From assembly GCA_028874215.1 (NCBI GenBank), contig JAPPLF010000003.1:103298-167297 (forward strand): 64,000 bases of DNA, in the 5' to 3' direction. Positions 648-27,621 of the stretch are shown piece after piece; positions within the stretch are counted from its first letter, which is position 1, and the number at the start of each line of letters is the position of its first letter. Both the position numbers and the translations under genes were made by a program. The notes under the pieces are model-generated. The model was not told the origin of the DNA, did not search any database, and saw only the letters and a list, made by a program, of their open reading frames with translations. The DNA comes from Acidobacteriota bacterium. Lineage in GTDB: Bacteria; Acidobacteriota; UBA6911; RPQK01; JAJDTT01.

Positions 648-1706
648 TCATTCCCCGGACTGCCGTTCCGGGCGAAGCTCCCGGACCACCTTGCCGATCC
701 GCCACATCTCCGATTGCTCGACCTCCTTCAACTCCCGGGTGAGGGCCTCCCGGTAGTCGGCGGCCCGGTTCGCAGCCAGGACCCGGCGCGTCTCTTCGCC
801 GCGCGCCACCTTGTCGTAGAGCTCCTCGAAGATGGGGACGTTGGCGTCCCGGAAGCGCTTGAACCAGTCCAGGGCGCCGCGTTGGGCCGTGGTGGAGCAG
901 TTGGCGTACATCCAATCCATCCCGTTCTCGGCGATGAGAGGGTAGAGGCTCTGGGTCGCCTCTTCGACGGTCTCGTTGAAAGCCTCCTGAGGACTGTGGC
1001 CCCGGGCCCGAAGCACCTCGTACTGGGCCAGCCAGAGTCCGTAGATGGCTCCCATCAGGACCCCCCGTTCTCCCGTCAGGTCGCTGTAGACCTCCTTTTT
1101 GAAGTTGGTCTCGAAGAGGAACCCGGACCCGATGGCGATTCCCAGCGCCAGGCAGCGCTCCCGGGCGCGGCCCGTGTAGTCCTGGTCCACCGCGTAGCTG
1201 GAATTGATCCCCCGGCCCTCGAGGAAGAGCCGCCTCACCGTCGTCCCGGATCCCTTGGGCGCCACCAGGATCACGTCGATGTCGGGCGGCGGAACCACGC
1301 CGGTCTGGTCGTTGTAGGTGAGGGCGAACCCGTGGGAAAAGCAGAGGGCGTCGCCCGGTTTGAGGTGGGGCTTGATGTTGGGCCACTGCGCGCCCTGCCC
1401 GGCGTCGCTCAACAGGTACATGACCAGCGTGGACTGCTCCACCACCTGCGTGATGTCCTCGATCAGGTTGACACCCGGGACCCAGCCGTCCTCGACCGCC
1501 TTCTTCCAGCCGTTGCCGCCGCGGCGCTGCCCGACGACCACGTCGATCCCGTTGTCCCGGCAGTTCAGGGACTGCCCGTGGCCCTGAGGGCCGTAGCCAA
1601 TGACGCCGATGCGCTCACGACCCAGAATCTCCCGGACCTTGTCCATGGGGTAGTCGCTGCGTTCGATGACGTCCTCGACATAGTCGCCGATCTGGATTCT
1701 TCTCAT
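648..1706 (-). CDS. ilvC: Ketol-acid reductoisomerase, fungal/Bacteroidetes-like form
   Basis: NADPH- and Mg-dependent isomeroreductase of valine, leucine and isoleucine synthesis. The 352 aa protein has an N-terminal Rossmann domain with the dinucleotide motif GYGPQGHGQSLNCRDNG (about residues 37-53), then DVILVAPKGSGTTVR and EGRGINSSYAV. The C-terminal knotted domain carries the metal-binding DLTGERG and ETVEEATQSLYPLI stretches. Length and the ending WRIGKVVRELRPE match the yeast Ilv5-like branch more closely than the usual enterobacterial or actinobacterial classes. The family call is certain; the branch call is from remembered sequence patterns. It is transcribed divergently from the cupin gene, with a 132 nt gap, and precedes the ThDP gene. 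Confidence 0.96.
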   Translation of the reverse strand: MRRIQIGDYVEDVIERSDYPMDKVREILGRERIGVIGYGPQGHGQSLNCRDNGIDVVVGQRRGGNGWKKAVEDGWVPGVNLIEDITQVVEQSTLVMYLLSDAGQGAQWPNIKPHLKPGDALCFSHGFALTYNDQTGVVPPPDIDVILVAPKGSGTTVRRLFLEGRGINSSYAVDQDYTGRARERCLALGIAIGSGFLFETNFKKEVYSDLTGERGVLMGAIYGLWLAQYEVLRARGHSPQEAFNETVEEATQSLYPLIAENGMDWMYANCSTTAQRGALDWFKRFRDANVPIFEELYDKVARGEETRRVLAANRAADYREALTRELKEVEQSEMWRIGKVVRELRPERQSGE

Positions 1707-1838
1707 AATTCCCTCTCTTCGGAAGATTCGATATGCTTCGCTTGTTCAGCAGGACGAAGGAGCGAGTTTATACCAAATCCTGCGAAGGCGACTCAACAAC
1801 TCCGGGACGCAGTTCCCGCGGGCCGACAAGGAGCAGTC

Positions 1839-2189
1839 ATGCAGATCAAACAGGTTTGGGACCTGACCCGGTTTCGCCCCGAGAAAATGCAAAAGGTGAA
1901 TCTCTTCGAGACCCCCCGCATGTTCTGCGACATCTACTGCTTCGAACCGGGCCAGGAACAGAAGGTTCACTCCCACCGGGGCAACGACAAGATCTACCAC
2001 GTCCTGAAGGGACGCGGCCGTTTTACGGTGGGTGAGGAAACCCACACCCTGGAAGAAGGGGAGGCCACCTGGGCCCCGGCGGGCGAACCCCACGGCGTGC
2101 TCAACCATTCCGGTGATCCTCTGATCTGCCTGGTCTTCATGGCGCCCCATCCCAGACCGGACCGATTCGCGCCGGCGGGTGAAGATTGA
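1839..2189 (+). CDS. Small cupin-domain protein
   Basis: A single-domain cupin of 116 aa. The first cupin motif is VHSHRGNDKIYHVLKGRG (about residues 43-60) and the second contains PAGEPHGVLNHSGD (about 81-94), supplying His residues for a metal site; the usual Glu of motif 1 is not evident. The ATG was chosen because AAGGAG lies a few bases upstream; a much longer frame through this region is antisense to ilvC and was discarded. Its 3' end overlaps the start region of pabB, so the two are probably co-transcribed. Substrate unknown. Confidence 0.82.
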   Translation: MQIKQVWDLTRFRPEKMQKVNLFETPRMFCDIYCFEPGQEQKVHSHRGNDKIYHVLKGRGRFTVGEETHTLEEGEATWAPAGEPHGVLNHSGDPLICLVFMAPHPRPDRFAPAGED

Positions 2190-3693
2190 AGCCATGTATT
2201 GCCGGTCCCTGCCCCTTTCCTCCGACCCGGCCGCGCTGTACGCCCGGCTGAGCCGGTCCCGGGGCCCCTGGGCGGTTCTCGACAGCGGTTGGGACCCCGG
2301 AGGCGCGCGGGGCGGTCCCCTGTCCCGGTTCTGCGTCTGCGCCGTCGACCCGTTCGCCCTCCTCACTGCCCGAGGGGACCGGGCGGTCCTGACCTGGAAA
2401 GACGGCCGTTGCGAAAGAGGATCGACGCTTCCGCTCCTCCGGGACGTACTGAAGCGCTTTCAGCTTCCGGACTCGAACTGGCCCACCCCTTTTCCGGCGG
2501 GGGCCTTGGGATATTTCGGTTACGAGCTCGGGGCTCTGATGGAGCCGGCGTTCGGTGCGCCCCCGAGAGCGGACCAGGAGACCGGCCTCCCCGACCTCTG
2601 GTTGGGTCTGTTCGATTCCGCGGTGACCATCGACCTGGAGCGCGAACGGATCGTGCTCAGCGCCACCGGCCAGCCCGATTCCGGCGGCCGGGCCCGCCAA
2701 CGGGCGGAATCCCGGATTCGGGAGCTGACCGCGGCAGTCGAATCCGCGGTAGCCGCCCCGATGCGCGGCCCCGTACCGGCACCGCCGGCATCCGCTGGCG
2801 GCGACGGCTTCGATTCCAACTTCACTCCTTCCGGGTTCGCCCGGGCCGTCGACCGGATCAAGGAATTCATCGCCGCCGGAGACATCTACCAGGCCAACCT
2901 CTCCCATCGCTTCCGGACACGCTTCAGGAAGGACCCGTTCCGGCTCTTCCTGGATCTGCGCCAGGCGGCCCCCGCCCCATTCTCCGCCTTCCTGGACGGT
3001 GGAGACTTCGCCGTGGTCAGCATGTCGCCGGAACGCTTCCTGCACCTGGACCCGGAGACGCGCCGGGTCGAAACCCGTCCCATCAAGGGCACCCGGCCGC
3101 GCGGGCGAACCGTCACGGAGGACCGCCTCTTGGCCCGGGAGCTCGTCCACAGCGGGAAGGACCGGGCCGAGCACGTCATGATCGTGGACCTGGAGCGGAA
3201 CGACCTGGGCCGGGTGGCGCAGGTGGGCACGGTCCAAGTGAGGGAATTGTCGCTGCTGGAAACCTTCCCCACGCTGTTTCACCTGACCTCGACGGTGGAG
3301 GGGATCCTGGCGCCCGGACGCGACCGCGTGGATCTTCTCAAGGCCACCTTTCCCGGAGGCTCCATCACCGGAGCGCCCAAGATCCGCGCCATGCAGGTGA
3401 TCGACGAGCTGGAGACGGTCCGGCGGGGGATCTACACCGGGTCTCTCGGGTACCTGAGCTTCACCGGCGGGATGGATCTGAACGTGGCCATTCGCACCAT
3501 CGTCGTCCGGGATGGGCGCGCCGAGTTTCACGTGGGCGCCGGAATCGTCGCCGACAGCGACCCGGAGGCGGAATACCAGGAGACGCTGGTCAAGGGACGG
3601 TCCCTGCGGGAGGCCCTGGAGGCCGCCGAAACACGGGATCGCGAGCCCTTTCGCCAAACCGCCTCAAGGTTGCTGGCGGATCGGATTTTCTAA
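2179..3693 (+). CDS. pabB: Aminodeoxychorismate synthase component I (PabB)
   Basis: Chorismate-binding enzyme that makes 4-amino-4-deoxychorismate for folate synthesis. The C-terminal half carries the family signatures IYQANLSHRF, DLERNDLGRV and FPGGSITGAPKIRAM. The decisive motif is PIKGTRPRG: PabB proteins have the active-site Lys (PIKGT), whereas anthranilate synthase TrpE has PIAGT. The protein is 504 aa from a GTG start overlapping the cupin gene; an ATG five codons later is an equally possible start. No PabA glutaminase or PabC lyase gene is in the window. Confidence 0.92.
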   Translation: MKIEAMYCRSLPLSSDPAALYARLSRSRGPWAVLDSGWDPGGARGGPLSRFCVCAVDPFALLTARGDRAVLTWKDGRCERGSTLPLLRDVLKRFQLPDSNWPTPFPAGALGYFGYELGALMEPAFGAPPRADQETGLPDLWLGLFDSAVTIDLERERIVLSATGQPDSGGRARQRAESRIRELTAAVESAVAAPMRGPVPAPPASAGGDGFDSNFTPSGFARAVDRIKEFIAAGDIYQANLSHRFRTRFRKDPFRLFLDLRQAAPAPFSAFLDGGDFAVVSMSPERFLHLDPETRRVETRPIKGTRPRGRTVTEDRLLARELVHSGKDRAEHVMIVDLERNDLGRVAQVGTVQVRELSLLETFPTLFHLTSTVEGILAPGRDRVDLLKATFPGGSITGAPKIRAMQVIDELETVRRGIYTGSLGYLSFTGGMDLNVAIRTIVVRDGRAEFHVGAGIVADSDPEAEYQETLVKGRSLREALEAAETRDREPFRQTASRLLADRIF

Positions 3694-3699
3694 TAGAAT
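3670..3699 (+). promoter_or_regulatory. Possible sigma-70 promoter for tRNA-His
   Basis: TTGCTG (4/6 to -35) and TAGAAT (5/6 to -10) are separated by 18 nt, at the very end of pabB and about 54 nt before the tRNA. Plausible by spacing only. Confidence 0.35.
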
Positions 3700-3753
3700 A
3701 GCGATCCTTCCGCCCGGAAACCTCAATTCCGGGCGTGACGTTTCGAATATGTG

Positions 3754-3830
3754 GTGGGCGTAGCTCAGTCAGGTAGAGCACAGGGTTGTGGCCCCTGTGG
3801 CCGTGGGTTCAAGTCCCATCGCCCACCCCA
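3754..3830 (+). tRNA. tRNA-His (GTG)
   Basis: Full cloverleaf. Acceptor GTGGGCG pairs with CGCCCAC, the D-arm is GCTC...GAGC, the anticodon stem CAGGG/CCCTG encloses TTGTGGC with anticodon GTG, and the T-arm is GTGGG-TTCAAGT-CCCAT. The discriminator is C and the CCA end is encoded. The base just before the acceptor is G, which supplies the G-1 that pairs with C73, a tRNA-His hallmark. Confidence 0.97.
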
Positions 3831-3900
3831 TTTCCCGGGCTTTCCAAATATTTGGTTGAAAGTAGCGTAGAGGGGGACTGCCTGGGTCGCTCCGCTCCCT

Positions 3901-3924
3901 CGGCGACAGGAAAGTCGCCGCTCC
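3901..3924 (+). repeat. Hairpin repeat unit, GGCGAC/GTCGCC variant
   Basis: One copy of the dispersed hairpin family. Stem GGCGAC pairs with GTCGCC across the loop AGGAAA, and the unit ends in GCTCC. It ends 2 nt before the stop codon of the minus-strand acetyltransferase gene. Confidence 0.85.
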
Positions 3925-3926
3925 AC

Positions 3927-5126
3927 TCAGAAATGCTCGCTGCACCAGGGGGGCGGGGTGACGCGGAACATGGCGTCGGCTTCGGCGAGTTTCCTGGGGT
4001 CGCGGGCACGGATGCGGGACGCGCGAGCCAGGGTCAGGAAGCTCACGCCGCCGAGGTAGACGGCGCCCAGCTCGTTGGCCGTGAGTTCCAGGTCGGGGCG
4101 CCGGGTGGTGGGGCGGCAGGCGGCGCCGTCGGGTCCCCCTTCCAGCTCGAAGCGGCCCCGGTTCCAGGGGCAGCTCGCATCCTCCAATTCGAGAACCAGC
4201 CGGCCCGATGAAGCGTACCGCCGGGCTGAGAGCGCCGCCGGCGCGTCGATGAGGCGCAGCCAGAGAGAATCGCAGGGGGTGCGTTTCAGGTGGCGCGGGT
4301 CGGCCAGCATCCAGAGGAGCGGGTCCTGCAAGGGTCGGTGGCCCGCCTGGACGCAGGTCATCAGGTCCACTCCGAAGCAGAACTGCCAAAGCGCTCTTTC
4401 GGCGCGCGCGTTGATGCCGCAGAGTTCGTCCACGGCGACGATCTGGTCCCGGGGGCGGATCCGGTAGAGCGCATAGCCTTCGACGCTGGACCCGTCCCGG
4501 TACACGGCACGGATCAACCGGGTCCGGTCCGGGCGATCCTGGTCCTGGGGGTCGCCCAGAGCCTGTTCCCAGCGCGCGGTTCGGCGATGGATGGCCCCGG
4601 CTCGCCCATAACAGGCCTGCTCGCGAACCTTCGGCAACAATTCCAGCGCTTCGGACCGGGAAATGTATTCCACCCGTCCTGCGCCCGAGTCGCCGGGGAT
4701 CATCTGCGTCCGCAGCCGGTCGATGGACCAGGACTCGTGGAAAGTGGCGATCCCATAACCGAAGCGGCCGTAGATGATGCTCTCGGAGGCGTAGAGGCCG
4801 GTGGCCGGTTCTCCCCGGTCATGCATGTCCCGGAGCTGGCGGTTCATCATCCGGGTCATGAGCCCCCGCCTCCGGTGCGTGGGCTGGACCGTCACTCCGG
4901 CCACCCCGGCCATGGGGAGCCAGCCTCCCGGAATCCGCAGCCGGAAGGTGTGGGAGTTGATGGTGCCCACGATCCGTCCCGAGTCGTACGCGGCCAGCGA
5001 ACGGTCTATTTCAACCGGAGTGTTCAGTAGCTGCGATTCCGGGATGCCGTACCCGAATCCGCTGTACTTGGCCCGGATCCAGGCGGGATAGTCTTCGGCG
5101 GACAGGGCCCGCAGCTCGATGCTCAT
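3927..5126 (-). CDS. Eis-like GNAT N-acetyltransferase
   Basis: A 399 aa protein with the length and layout of the Eis family: an N-terminal GNAT domain with the acetyl-CoA binding stretch VTVQPTHRRRGLMTRMM (about residues 77-93), a second degenerate GNAT part, and a C-terminal region of sterol-carrier-like fold in that family. Eis proteins acetylate amines of aminoglycosides and other small molecules; the substrate here is unknown. The ATG overlaps the stop of the preceding gene as ATGA, indicating translational coupling to the NodB-like gene and the peptide transporter operon. A longer in-frame start further upstream would lie inside that gene and is not needed. Confidence 0.85.
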   Translation of the reverse strand: MSIELRALSAEDYPAWIRAKYSGFGYGIPESQLLNTPVEIDRSLAAYDSGRIVGTINSHTFRLRIPGGWLPMAGVAGVTVQPTHRRRGLMTRMMNRQLRDMHDRGEPATGLYASESIIYGRFGYGIATFHESWSIDRLRTQMIPGDSGAGRVEYISRSEALELLPKVREQACYGRAGAIHRRTARWEQALGDPQDQDRPDRTRLIRAVYRDGSSVEGYALYRIRPRDQIVAVDELCGINARAERALWQFCFGVDLMTCVQAGHRPLQDPLLWMLADPRHLKRTPCDSLWLRLIDAPAALSARRYASSGRLVLELEDASCPWNRGRFELEGGPDGAACRPTTRRPDLELTANELGAVYLGGVSFLTLARASRIRARDPRKLAEADAMFRVTPPPWCSEHF

Positions 5127-7339
5127 TCGTCCTCCGGCACGATCTCGACTTCGACTCTGAACCGCCCGAACCGGTTCTGATCTCCCTCCAGCTCGAAAGT
5201 CAGGATCTTCTCGGGACGAGACCTGCAGACCTGGACCCGCGTCCAATCCCGGTTCCGGACGGTCACTCGATAATCCCGCTCCGGCAGGACGTCGTAAAGG
5301 CAGAGGCCGTGGCGGCGAATCAGCTTCAGATCCAGGGCAACCGCCGCGCCGGCGCTGTCGTAGACCGCGTTCAAGACCTGGAGGCCCTTGGAGTTGGCGT
5401 TCAGGAGCAGCGGACAGCCGGCGGGCGGCGGCGCCAGCCGGAGGGTCACCTGCTCCCCGGGGTCCAGGGGAGGCGCCGTGAAATAGCGTCCGTCCACGAT
5501 GTGAATGTAGTTCACTCCGTCCGCCGAGACCCCTTCCACGGGAACGTCGCTCTCCACCATGAACCCTTCCAGGCGTCGGCCGGTGGGGTTGGCCACCGTC
5601 ACGCTCCCGGGAGAGTCGGCGCGGAATCGGATGGACTCATAGTCGGTCATGGTCTCGTACAGCATCTTCTCGCTGGCCAGCCAGAAACCGAGCCGTTCGG
5701 CCCGGGTGATGGCGTAGATCAGGTAGTCCAAGGTCCCACGCCCCTGGTTGACGCTGCCGTCCGCGCTGAAGAGGGGATGGTATTGGAGCGTGTAGACTCC
5801 GTTGTCCAGCCGGTACGGGTCTTCGTTCCCCTCTCCCGAACCCAACTCGAACTCCCAGGGAGGCTTGCGCGTGGAGGCTTCCAGAGCCGGAGAAGGGGCC
5901 TTCCCATGCCGGCCCGAGTAGATCAGGTCGACCAGATTGTAATCGCAGTCGTATTCGTGGGTGCGATCCCAACCCCGCAGGGCCTTGTGCTTCTCCACTC
6001 TGGTGATGACCGGGTGGTAGGGAAACCAGAAGCCGGAACTGGCCACGGTGGTGCTGCCGTCGGTCTCGTAGGCGTGCTCGCCATATTCCCACATGTCGTA
6101 GAAGCAGAAGGTGCAGGTTCCCAACAGGTCGGGCACTTGCTCGTATGCGTAGTCCATGGCGTCCAGGGTTTCAGGGTGGGCGTGGGCGCCGCCGTGCCGG
6201 CCGCAGGTGTAGACCCGGATCCCCAGACGCTCCTCGGTGACCCGGATATGTTCGTAGAGCCCCTTTCCCACCAGGTAGGTGGGGGGACCGCCCACCAGGC
6301 TGTCGTTGTGCAGCCCCGCCTCCAGGAACTCGTACTTGGCGACCTCGCGGACCCAGAGCCGGGACTCCTCCTCGGTGGCGGAATCGTCCGCAATGACCCA
6401 GTCCAGGATGTCCCAACTGGCCGGCACCAGGTTGGCCGCCTCGTACTCCAACATGGCCAGGTCGGATGACTGGTCCACGTCGTGCCGCAGGGAGAGGACA
6501 CCCCGGTAGCTGCCGAACGCGCGCAGCCGGGTAGGGGGCAGGCCCTGGTTTTGTTCCTTCAGGAGCCGGGCCAGGAAGTAGGCCAGCGTGTCCCCCCAGT
6601 GGACCGGATTGTTCCAGTTCCGGATCTCGTCCACGTAGAGGTGGGCCTGCAGCACGCCGCCCAGGAACTCGAAGACCTGGTTGGCCACGTAGAGGGTGTT
6701 GCCGGTGAGGACGATCCCGTCGCCGAGCCGGCTCCGGGTGGCCGTCGAGGCGTTGCGGAGGTCCCCCGTAATCTCGTAGAGGCCGGCTGCAACCTCTGCG
6801 CCGGCGGCGGCCTCGACGCGGTGAACGGCCGCGCCGCGGGCGCCCGTGACGTAGAGATCCTCCCAGGTCGACGTGTCGCCGAACGGGGAACCGGCGGTCC
6901 AGCCCCATCCGCTGTAGCCCTGGGGCCGCTCCAGCCGGGATCGCTCCAGGCCCAGGAGGGAATCGGGGAGATTGGTCCGGCCGGTGACCATGAGAAAGAA
7001 ATCCGGGTCCTGTAGACGGTCCCGGATCCGCGAGAGGGTGCGCTCTTCAAGCCGGGCGGCATTGGGAATCACGAGAGTCTGGTACTCCCGGATCGATTCC
7101 CGCAACTCCTCTTCGTCGACGGTGTCGTGCTTCAGGTTCAGCCGGTTGAGAAAGGCGGAGGCGGCGTTGGGGGCCAGGTAGGCGTACTCCCCCTTGAGCC
7201 ACCGGGCCCGCTCCCCCCAGGCGTCGGTGAACTCGTAGATCTCGTCTTTCGCCCGGGCTTCCCGGACATAGAGTTGCCGCGAAGTCCCGCTCTTGAGCAG
7301 GGCGACGTTCTGGCGCAGAGTCGGTGGCATTTCGGTCAC
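5123..7339 (-). CDS. NodB-like (polysaccharide deacetylase fold) protein of unknown substrate
   Basis: A 738 aa protein, apparently cytoplasmic (no signal peptide seen). The central part has LSLRHDVDQSSDLAML (about residues 287-302), the Asp-Asp metal motif of NodB-type deacetylases, followed by GLHNDSLVGG and CGRHGGAHAHPETLDAM, which supply further His residues. The N-terminal about 120 residues look like a flavodoxin/ThuA-like domain and the C-terminal part is beta-rich. The deacetylase-fold call rests on the RHDVD motif; function is not established. It lies 33 nt after the permease dppC gene and overlaps the acetyltransferase gene, so it belongs to the transporter operon. Confidence 0.65.
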   Translation of the reverse strand: MTEMPPTLRQNVALLKSGTSRQLYVREARAKDEIYEFTDAWGERARWLKGEYAYLAPNAASAFLNRLNLKHDTVDEEELRESIREYQTLVIPNAARLEERTLSRIRDRLQDPDFFLMVTGRTNLPDSLLGLERSRLERPQGYSGWGWTAGSPFGDTSTWEDLYVTGARGAAVHRVEAAAGAEVAAGLYEITGDLRNASTATRSRLGDGIVLTGNTLYVANQVFEFLGGVLQAHLYVDEIRNWNNPVHWGDTLAYFLARLLKEQNQGLPPTRLRAFGSYRGVLSLRHDVDQSSDLAMLEYEAANLVPASWDILDWVIADDSATEEESRLWVREVAKYEFLEAGLHNDSLVGGPPTYLVGKGLYEHIRVTEERLGIRVYTCGRHGGAHAHPETLDAMDYAYEQVPDLLGTCTFCFYDMWEYGEHAYETDGSTTVASSGFWFPYHPVITRVEKHKALRGWDRTHEYDCDYNLVDLIYSGRHGKAPSPALEASTRKPPWEFELGSGEGNEDPYRLDNGVYTLQYHPLFSADGSVNQGRGTLDYLIYAITRAERLGFWLASEKMLYETMTDYESIRFRADSPGSVTVANPTGRRLEGFMVESDVPVEGVSADGVNYIHIVDGRYFTAPPLDPGEQVTLRLAPPPAGCPLLLNANSKGLQVLNAVYDSAGAAVALDLKLIRRHGLCLYDVLPERDYRVTVRNRDWTRVQVCRSRPEKILTFELEGDQNRFGRFRVEVEIVPEDE

Positions 7340-10991: not shown

Positions 10992-11117
10992 CTTCAGTTC
11001 CTGACCCTCATCTTGCCCGAGCCGGGCTTGCGGCGGTATATTGGCCGCCTCCATGGGCCGGGGTCAACAGCCCCTGGTGAATGTCCCGCGCCGGGGCGCG
11101 ACAGGGGATCCGCACCT

Positions 11118-13715: not shown

Positions 13716-13720
13716 ACAGC

Positions 13721-13741
13721 CCGTGGCAAGAGTCGCCACGG
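13721..13741. terminator. Hairpin between convergent genes
   Basis: A perfect 7 bp stem, CCGTGGC/GCCACGG, with a 7 nt loop, between the ends of the LRR gene and the dioxygenase gene. There is no T tract, so it is only a candidate bidirectional terminator. Confidence 0.5.
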
Positions 13742-13750
13742 ACGGTCAGG

Positions 13751-24835: not shown

Positions 24836-25975
24836 TTACTGGATGCGCTCGCGGATCCAGCCTCCGCCCAGGACCCGGTCACCCTGGTAGAAGACCGCCG
24901 CCTGACCGGGCGAGACCGACATCTGAGGACGATCGAAGACGACACGCGCCATTCCTCCCCCGTTCTCCGCTGCCGCCGCCGGGCAGTCGATCTCCGCGGC
25001 GGCCTCGGCGTGCCGGGAACGGATCTTGACCGAGGCCCGGACCGGGCCCCGCGGCGTCCGTCCCGAGATCCAATGGACACGCTCGGCCACCAGCCCCGTG
25101 CTGAACAGCTCCTCCTTGTAACCGACGATCACGGCGTTCTTCCGCCGCTCCAGACGCAGAACGTACAGAGGCCGTGGATGCGAGATGCCCAGGCCCCGCC
25201 TCTGTCCCACCGTGAAACGGAACAGTCCCCGGTGAGTCCCCACCCGCGAGCCGTCCGCCATGAGCACCGGCCCGGGACGCTCCTGCTCCTGGAGGACCGG
25301 CAGAAAGTCGTGATCCACCCCTCCGGCCTGCCGGCGAATGAAGTCCGCGTAGTTGCCCCCGGAAACGAAACAGATTTCCTGGCTCTCCGGTTTGTCGGCG
25401 GTGACAAGCCCGTTGGCGCGGGCGATGTCCCGAACCGCGGCCTTGGGATACTCGCCCACGGGAAACAGCGTCCGGGCCAACTGATCCTGGTTGAGCTCGA
25501 ACAGGAAATAGGACTGGTCCTTGTCCGTGTCCAGGGCCTTCAGGAGCACGTGGCCGTCTTCTTCGTCGCGGCCCACCCGAACGTAGTGACCGGTGGCCAC
25601 CCGCTGGAGACCGATCTGACGAGCGAAATCCATCAACCGGTCGAACTTGACGAAGGTATTGCAGAGCACGCAGGGAGACGGAGTCCTGCCCTCCAGGTAC
25701 TCTCCGATAAAGGTCCTGATGACCTTTTCCCGAAAGACCTTCTCCATGTTGACGACGTAAAACGGGACCGCCAACCTTTCCGCCACCCGGCGCGCGTCGT
25801 AAGTGTCGTCCAGCGAGCAGCAACGCCCGGACCGGACCGCCGTACCCTGGGGGTCCTTGCGGTGGTCCCACAACCGCATGGTGCATCCCACGATGTCGTA
25901 GCCCGCGTCCTTGAGCAGGACTGCGGCGGCAGAGCTGTCCACGCCGCCACTCATGGCCAGAAGGATCCGCTCCAT
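24836..25975 (-). CDS. mnmA: tRNA-specific 2-thiouridylase
   Basis: ATP-dependent thiolation of the wobble uridine (s2U34) of tRNA Lys, Glu and Gln. The 379 aa protein has the N-terminal PP-loop LLAMSGGVDSSAAA, the catalytic Cys in SPCVLCNTFVKFD (about residues 102-114) and the second Cys in SQEICFVSGGNY. RHEAEAAAEI-like C-terminal barrel sequence is present, and the end is complete. Confidence 0.96.
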   Translation of the reverse strand: MERILLAMSGGVDSSAAAVLLKDAGYDIVGCTMRLWDHRKDPQGTAVRSGRCCSLDDTYDARRVAERLAVPFYVVNMEKVFREKVIRTFIGEYLEGRTPSPCVLCNTFVKFDRLMDFARQIGLQRVATGHYVRVGRDEEDGHVLLKALDTDKDQSYFLFELNQDQLARTLFPVGEYPKAAVRDIARANGLVTADKPESQEICFVSGGNYADFIRRQAGGVDHDFLPVLQEQERPGPVLMADGSRVGTHRGLFRFTVGQRRGLGISHPRPLYVLRLERRKNAVIVGYKEELFSTGLVAERVHWISGRTPRGPVRASVKIRSRHAEAAAEIDCPAAAAENGGGMARVVFDRPQMSVSPGQAAVFYQGDRVLGGGWIRERIQ

Positions 25976-26131
25976 GGTTGCCGGTCACTCCTCTTCCTGG
26001 TTCCGATCCAAAAACTGGGACAAGAACGGGCGACCGCAGAGGCCGCCTTTGCCGCTGCCACGGTTCGTCAGGTCCCGGCCCGCAGTTTCGATTTTACTAA
26101 CAGTCCGTGGTGAAAGTCCCGCGAGCACCGA

Positions 26132-26228
26132 GACCGTTCCTGCGCCCGCCGGACAAGGCGCGATTCGGGTGCATACCGGGAGTATGTGCCCGAATCGCAA
26201 CGCAGTCCGCCGGGATGCAGGGACGGTC
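26132..26228. other. 97-nt near-perfect long hairpin element
   Basis: Outer stem GACCGTTCCTGC pairs with GCAGGGACGGTC (11 Watson-Crick pairs plus one G-U). A second 9 bp stretch CCGCCGGAC/GTCCGCCGG has a central mismatch, followed by an inner stem GCGATTCGGG/CCCGAATCGC (perfect 10 bp) continued by TGCATAC/GTATGTG, closing on loop CGGGA. It lies in the 284 nt gap between the DUF1501 gene and mnmA. It could be a MITE-like palindrome, an RNA element or a terminator. Confidence 0.75.
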
Positions 26229-26259
26229 GAATGCCGGGGCGACTTTCGCCGCGGGCGGT

Positions 26260-27621
26260 TCAGATCAGCTCGTGAACCGGCTGGCCCGTGGTGTCGTCGA
26301 TGGAATTGGCGATCTTGACGGGGCGGCCGATGGGGCTCATGTACTCCTTGGTCCAGTCGATCCCGAAGGCCTTGTAGACGGTGGCGTGCACGTCTCCCAT
26401 GGTCACCATTCGTTCGGCCACGAAGGCGCCCCGCTCGTCGCTGGCGCCCACCACCTTGCCCCCCTCGATACCGCCTCCGCCCAGGATCATGGACCAGCAA
26501 TGGGGCCAGTGGTCCCGTCCCCCCTTGGAGTTGAAGCGAGGCGTCCGTCCGAACTCGCCCATGACCAGAACGAGAGTCGACTCCAGCAGGCCCCGTTCTT
26601 CCAGGTCGTCCAGTAGCACGGGAAGGGATCGCTCCAGGCCGGGGACCAGGTTGTCCCGGTGTTTCTTGTCGTTGTCGGCGTGCGTGTCCCAGCCGTTGAG
26701 ATCGTGGCCGGCCGCGGTGACGAATCGGCTTCCCGCCTCCACCAGCCGGCGCGACAGCAGCAGACTCTGTCCGAATCCGGTGCGGCCGTAGGCGTCGCGG
26801 GTCTTCTCCGGCTCCTTGGAGAGGTCGAACGCCTCCCGCACTTCGGAGGAGAGGACCATGTTCACGGCCTGCTCGGTGAAGCTGTCCATCTTGAACGCTT
26901 CAGCCCTCTCCATCTTCCGGCGGTAGGTGTCGTCCATCAGGGTCAGGAGCGAACGGCGGTCCTCCAGCCGTTTCGGCGAAATGGCCTTGGGCAGGCTCAG
27001 ATCCTGCACCTGAAAGCCTTCGCTGTTGGGATCGGTGCCCACCACCATGGGATCGTACTTGGCGTCCAGAAACGCCCCCTTGAGGTAGGTTCCCTTGGCC
27101 CCCTGCGTGTAACCAGGGACCGCAATATGTGCCGGTACGTAATTTCTGGGGCCCCGTTCCCGCGTGACGATGGAACCGAAGGAGGGGAACTGCATGGCCG
27201 CCGTGGGCCGGTGTCCGGTGAGGGCGTAGTAGGTCCCCTGTCCGTGGTTGTTCTCCTCGGTGTGCATGGACCGGATGATGGAGACCTTGTCCATGCGCTT
27301 GGCCATGCGGGGAAGGAGCTCGGAGATCTGGATTCCGGGAACGTTGGTGGAGATGGGGTTGAAGCTGCTGCCGGCCTTGGGGTCCCACATGTCGACGTGG
27401 CTCGGTCCCCCGTCCAGCCAGACCAGGATGCACGACTTGGCGGTAGCGTTCGCTTCCACGTCGATGCCGGCTTCCGCAAAGACGCTCTTGGCCTGGAGAT
27501 AGCGGCCGAGGCTGATGCCGAACAGGCTGAGGGCCCCGGTCCGGATGAACTCGCGCCGCTGCAGCAGCGACTCGGTGCAGGTCAGACAGCCGATCTTTTG
27601 GCCGGGCTTGGGTACGCTCAT
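26260..27621 (-). CDS. DUF1501 domain protein, Tat-exported
   Basis: A 453 aa protein with a twin-arginine signal near the N-terminus (RREFIRTGALSLFGI, about residues 22-36) preceded by a Cys-containing LTCTES segment, typical of DUF1501. Other family marks are LVWLDGGPSHVDMWDPK, FPSFGSIV and VMGEFGRTPRFNSKGGRDHW, which resemble the metal-binding fold of sulfatases/alkaline phosphatases. Its activity is not known. It is the last gene of a three-gene operon with the DUF1549/DUF1553 and PPC-domain genes. Confidence 0.92.
   Translation of the reverse strand: MSVPKPGQKIGCLTCTESLLQRREFIRTGALSLFGISLGRYLQAKSVFAEAGIDVEANATAKSCILVWLDGGPSHVDMWDPKAGSSFNPISTNVPGIQISELLPRMAKRMDKVSIIRSMHTEENNHGQGTYYALTGHRPTAAMQFPSFGSIVTRERGPRNYVPAHIAVPGYTQGAKGTYLKGAFLDAKYDPMVVGTDPNSEGFQVQDLSLPKAISPKRLEDRRSLLTLMDDTYRRKMERAEAFKMDSFTEQAVNMVLSSEVREAFDLSKEPEKTRDAYGRTGFGQSLLLSRRLVEAGSRFVTAAGHDLNGWDTHADNDKKHRDNLVPGLERSLPVLLDDLEERGLLESTLVLVMGEFGRTPRFNSKGGRDHWPHCWSMILGGGGIEGGKVVGASDERGAFVAERMVTMGDVHATVYKAFGIDWTKEYMSPIGRPVKIANSIDDTTGQPVHELI

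Follow-up and report, generated by a model that had tools for sequence, protein, structure and literature searches.

The 64,000-nucleotide stretch of DNA analysed here, which we call the window, contains two minus-strand genes, mnmA (positions 24836–25975, recognised by its tRNA_Me_trans domains) and a DUF1501 gene (26260–27621), with a conspicuous palindrome between them. An earlier note on this sequence had described a 97-nt palindrome at 26132–26228 with no T tract after it, and the location, the missing T tract and the palindrome itself all hold: the segment 26120–26240 folds at −80.3 kcal/mol against a mean of −49.8 kcal/mol for shuffled sequences (z −7.8; none of 200 shuffles as good), which is beyond chance. 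The inner stem is likewise as described, with 17-nt arms (26160–26176 and 26182–26198; 88% complementary without G-U pairs) around a 5-nt loop, and the plus-strand hairpin that they form (26160–26198) varies among subfamilies of the element. The limits had been drawn too narrowly. Pairing runs on outward to 26101–26258, and this longer segment forms one end-to-end hairpin (−114.9 kcal/mol, z −11.0, with none of 200 shuffles folding as well) whose fold is highly stable on both strands.

We interpret 26101–26258 (plus strand) as a 158-bp MITE in the form of a single long imperfect palindrome, its extent given by limits common to its copies, by 4-bp duplications and by the fold. The end pattern and the duplications place its left terminal inverted repeat, CAGTCCGTGGTGAAAGTC, at 26101–26118 on the plus strand; the right repeat of this copy, at 26241–26258 on the minus strand, departs from the degenerate end pattern at two positions. 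Flanking these are the 4-bp target copies, CTAA on the left (26097–26100) and TTCA on the right (26259–26262), the latter containing the DUF1501 stop codon, which abuts the element.

Copies, ends and target duplications

A search of the genome from which the window comes (G000; 5.7 Mb in 113 contigs) with a 161-bp query around the palindrome returned at least 42 matches at E ≤ 10, with the best 40 of 81 candidates scored; at least 40 had E ≤ 3e-9 and were 70–100% identical to all or part of the query. The same kind of search gave at least 41, 43 and 40 matches in three genomes of the same genus (G001, G002 and the sister genome G003), and all such copy numbers are lower bounds, since 40 candidates were scored per genome and 22 in a class-wide survey. 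That survey found the family in four of 38 genomes, every one from the window's genus, and recovered no match in the other 34 genomes of the class. The check proposed in the earlier note, a genome search for further copies with flanking direct repeats, thus yielded many copies and 4-bp duplications, and the palindrome is not the unconserved single-copy sequence that would have spoken against that note's proposals: it is repeated in its own genome and in three congeners.

An exact 36-mer of the element was present in 95 stretches of a species-level genome collection that may omit the window's own genome; among the matches listed, 80 stretches belonged to three MAGs with prefixes CATOST01, JAPOYZ01 and JAJDTT01, titled Acidobacteriota, Candidatus Aminicenantes and Acidobacteria, respectively. 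JAPOYZ01 carries the Candidatus Aminicenantes title yet matches a genome placed in the genus of the Acidobacteriota MAG CATOST01. Several contigs of G000 start or stop within the element. At least 14 copies in G003 (the query included, among the copies scored) are identical over 158 bp, pointing to recent spread in that genome, and the copies in G000 are more diverged than those in G003, with few retaining exact duplications. A limited literature search found no published name for this 158-bp MITE family, which is apparently new, although the kind of element is already known.

Aligned copies share sharp outer limits. The typical copy starts with CAGTCCGTGGTGAAAGTC and finishes with the reverse complement of CAGCCCGTGGCAAAAGTC, and most full copies are 158 bp long, below the size needed to encode a transposase, as expected of a MITE. 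The 18-bp terminal inverted repeats recur well beyond background: the end pattern gave 95 matches in G000 against 1 for a control, and 280 in G003 against 0. Target duplication was scored in all four genomes on element rows with both ends at four mismatches or fewer, 30 bp of flank and a length of 120–200 bp, those from G001–G003 being drawn from the best-listed family matches and first-listed end matches, which favours complete copies. Of 99 rows, 57 had an exact 4-bp duplication, whereas 2000 shuffles gave a permutation mean of 7.9 and at most 21; one of the 99 is a second pairing of one copy (L127), the alignment having used 98. By genome, the exact fraction was 34/41 in G003, 12/19 in G002, 9/22 in G001 and 2/17 in G000, and a second, partly overlapping sample gave 45 of 60. 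No row was exact at 3 bp or at 5 bp (0/99 each). We dropped a 2-bp TA duplication, suggested by a first alignment, as just 6 of 99 rows were exact at that length.

Length variants occur at both extremes. Six copies in G001 (L135–L140) measure 170 bp and have a different apical hairpin, beginning GTAGGGGCGACC. Two 29-bp elements (L054:1490–1518 and L055:1490–1518) consist solely of two joined ends, and a similar one, with two family ends head to head, lies in the window at 13717–13745 (plus strand); loss of the palindrome by deletion may have produced them. At 11068–11085, beside a short G+C-rich hairpin, the window has one more end-like sequence, with two mismatches.

Insertion sites and a candidate transposase

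The 57 exact duplications comprise TTAA (16), TCAA (9), CTAG (5), GTAA (4), CTAA, TTGA and CTAC (3 each) and ten rarer 4-mers. Fifty-one of them read as one base plus a stop codon on one strand, compared with 3.4% of 4-mers in the window, and 42 have a central TA, compared with 1.4%. A plain sequence preference may therefore explain most of the stop-codon signal. TCGA does not occur among the 57, though its frequency in the window equals that of TCAA and TTGA combined; a flexible YR step may be all that the target amounts to.

In many cases the duplication re-creates a stop codon, an observation from which any mechanism is putative. Measured on stop-to-stop frames, some of them spurious, a stop fell within 3 bp of 56 of 97 insertions, as against 217 of 855 matched 4-mer sites and 67 of 1500 random sites. 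A rough gene caller was applied to 60 copies with 600 bp of flank, from the 80 listed of the 95 stretches above: 13 of 60 insertions lay exactly on a stop codon, compared with 4.4% of the 270 matched sites overall and 11.7% of the subset of 103 outside genes. Insertions were also less common in gene interiors (14/60 within a called gene versus 62% of matched sites). Strict targeting of stop codons was rejected; 37 of 60 insertions lie more than 60 bp from the nearest called gene end, and the TA preference may be the alternative.

A candidate source of mobility is present in the sister genome, where MITE-type ends are found in facing orientation at a distance of about 1.48 kb. Six insertion sequences of 1474–1483 bp in G003 carry both ends, which are identical to the right end of the MITE or differ from it by at most two mismatches, and three of the six are flanked by exact 4-bp duplications. 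Their reading frames are 428–455 aa long; the three that were scanned contain DUF772 (PF05598) and a DDE transposase domain, and their best NCBIfam model is IS1182 (NF033551) at 170.5–177.9 bits. Since these scores fall below the cut-off of 270, we call the enzyme IS1182-like and do not file it as a member of IS1182. An IS701 partner, which the YTAR-like duplication had brought to mind, was discarded: DDE_5 (PF13546) exceeded its cut-off in none of the four genomes and gave a single weak match, in G003 (E 1.7e-4).

Relatives of the transposase occur in G003, with partial matches in G001; none was found at E ≤ 1e-10 in the draft genome G000 or in G002, and the other 34 class members searched gave none at E ≤ 1e-60. 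The copies in G000 consequently look stranded. G002 presents a tension, as no such transposase was found there and it nonetheless has exact duplications at 12 of the 19 copies scored. Beyond their ends the MITE and the insertion sequence have no evident sequence in common, and so the link between them rests on 18 bp.

Among the readings offered in the earlier note (a MITE, a structured RNA or a recombination site), the first is the one that these data bear out, by virtue of multiple copies, inverted repeats, 4-bp duplications, the empty sites described below and an insertion sequence sharing the ends of the element. We are highly confident that the element is a 158-bp MITE, so far found in one Acidobacteriota genus and probably mobilised through common 18-bp ends by the DUF772/DDE transposase of G003. 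The proposed course of events is that the 1.47–1.48-kb insertion sequences of G003 would supply a DDE transposase (DUF772, nearest IS1182); that this enzyme would recognise the 18-bp ends common to MITE and insertion sequence; that insertion would duplicate a target of 4 bp, in most cases NTAN, TCAA or TTGA; and, as the junctions strongly suggest, that exchange between two copies produced the copy in the window. Judging from the shared ends, a transposase of the G003 type probably moves the MITE in trans.

The inner stem and a possible RNA role

An alternative is that selection maintains an RNA fold, as in a small RNA, a regulatory leader or a terminator-like element. We consider this very improbable, although the evidence is not all on one side. 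The fold is very stable on either strand, subfamilies have inner stems that differ in sequence yet remain self-complementary, and RNAalifold predicts 42 pairs across 98 copies, 10 of which show at least one double change. These double changes would be unneeded if the interior were pure baggage, and they count against that view. The strongest, at alignment columns 38–142 and 39–141, both track one subfamily, and we read the covariation, short of proof, as lineage history rather than selection.

Against an RNA role, the target duplications require transposition, and the orientation and neighbours of the element vary from copy to copy. Rfam returned three matches at E up to 5, every one under its gathering score (the best at 16.3 bits versus 38.3). 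Many copies also pair badly in the inner arms. Scored by strict complementarity, with a threshold of our own choosing, the inner arms of 158-bp copies fell short of 14 matches in 18 positions in 8/13 copies in G000, 7/7 in G001, 15/18 in G002 and 6/35 in G003; several of these poorly paired copies are chimeras of two subfamilies. Exact duplications nonetheless flank 9 of the 15 in G002 and 5 of the 6 in G003, so good inner pairing is not required for transposition. The structured RNA suggested in the earlier note accordingly finds no support in the Rfam scores or in copies that combine poor inner arms with intact duplications. We infer instead that the palindromic interior is tolerated by the MITE or aids recognition as a hairpin.

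Exchange between copies and integrase islands

Comparison with relatives locates the empty sites. The DUF1501 gene end lacks an element in G002 and G003, and G001 has one at the same base as the window copy. Upstream of mnmA, all three congeners run into sequence beginning AAGACCAGAGG, with the element absent. In G000, that AAGACCAGAGG-type sequence and the gene that neighbours DUF1501 in the relatives flank a different copy, L009 on contig C21. The left CTAA of the window copy equals the right CTAA of L009, with which it pairs, and the right TTCA of the window copy is one base apart from the left TTTA of L009. The window copy and L009 thus appear, from their junctions, to be the two products of an exchange between copies; L009 shares its type of inner stem with the G001 copy, and the exchange is therefore placed to the right of the inner hairpin. 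Misassembly is possible, but it would need to create both junctions. The gene convergent with DUF1501 ends in ...FGFQMSS in G003 and in ...YSPW in G001 and at L009, where the element end supplies the stop codon.

Some other copies in G000 are split, with the break in the right arm close to CCGCCGG. At two of them a tyrosine integrase (L041:1968–3254 on C80 and L042:3973–5286 on C74), with Arm-DNA-bind_3, Phage_int_M and Phage_integrase domains, starts the DNA that adjoins the right arm, the islands lying on opposite sides of the element. The segment shared by both sides of these junctions corresponds to 26198–26220 (plus strand) in the window and would include a presumed attachment core around CCGCCGG. 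Beside another split copy, L044, are an N6_N4 methylase and a protein with a NO VEIN C-terminal domain (1525–3042 and 4204–5580), and a DUF4145 protein (3108–4007) adjoins L043; these genes may be cargo for restriction or defence. Further integrases of this family lie downstream of different short G+C-rich hairpins at L303, L304, L306 and L307, as seen by eye in 230 bp upstream of the integrase.

These islands speak for an origin as a site of integrase attachment or of cassette recombination, spread together with islands, as do related junctions at other split copies, though the integrase fragments near those are short (30 and 48 aa, at L046 and L043). We judge such an origin very improbable, more so than an RNA role: complete copies stand alone with target duplications, and of 17 integrase matches in G000, just two of the 12 loci fetched touch an element. 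Recombination, the remaining proposal of the earlier note, hence stands as a secondary property, seen in the window-copy exchange and in the islands at two copies, and falls as the primary identity of the element. An origin as a repeat of the REP/BIME or REPIN type that a Y1 (RAYT) transposase moves, which would suit many-copy intergenic palindromes and the presence of Y1_Tnp (PF01797) above cut-off in all four genomes (two each), is every bit as improbable, given a 158-bp length with 18-bp inverted ends, a DDE insertion sequence bearing those ends, and 4-bp duplications that Y1 leaves unexplained and that, to our knowledge, have no precedent in single-strand Y1 transposition.

Returning to the MITE, a more ambitious and doubtful version of its biology, which we advance as speculation, is that the transposase favours a base plus TAA, TAG or TGA and lands at gene ends, that the duplication restores the stop, and that integrase islands then use the hairpin as a landing pad while copies exchange through it. 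If this were true, the element would be a harmless harbour shaping the genomes of this genus.

Relation to known elements and significance

Correia and RUP elements depend on IS630-type enzymes, and we know of no target duplication made by REP/BIME. As far as the account in PMC2229807 extends, the family resembles Correia/NEMIS, RUP and ERIC in being under 200 bp, with terminal inverted repeats, target duplications, predicted long stem-loop transcripts and a transposase encoded elsewhere; those elements are A+T-rich with TA at their termini, unlike the Acidobacteriota MITE, which is G+C-rich and has a 4-bp duplication and an IS1182-like partner. IS1182 supplies the nearest profile of that partner, but IS1272, an IS1182-family member, is described in PMC5678879 as replacing stem-loops without a target duplication, whereas the present family makes 4-bp duplications at simple sites. 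MITEAba12 of the Moraxellaceae, a bacterial MITE reported as insertion-sequence derived (PMC6382973), is comparable by description only and comes from a different phylum. Closer in form are the many-copy, hairpin-forming MITEs of Thiomargarita, which PMC4853749 compares with Correia elements; that source, in the portion relevant here, records no parental insertion sequence, whereas a congener here has one with matching ends. REP/BIME palindromes, given as 20–40 bp in the description in PMC3733652, differ from a 158-bp element with 4-bp duplications, which does not qualify as one of them.

Three cautions follow for genome annotation: such palindromes need not be RNA genes, draft contigs here terminate inside them, and gene order can shift through them. 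For the organisms themselves, the family accounts for a striking group of long palindromes between genes in uncultured Acidobacteriota of this genus, and provides a MITE for which related genomes supply target duplications, empty sites and a candidate transposase.
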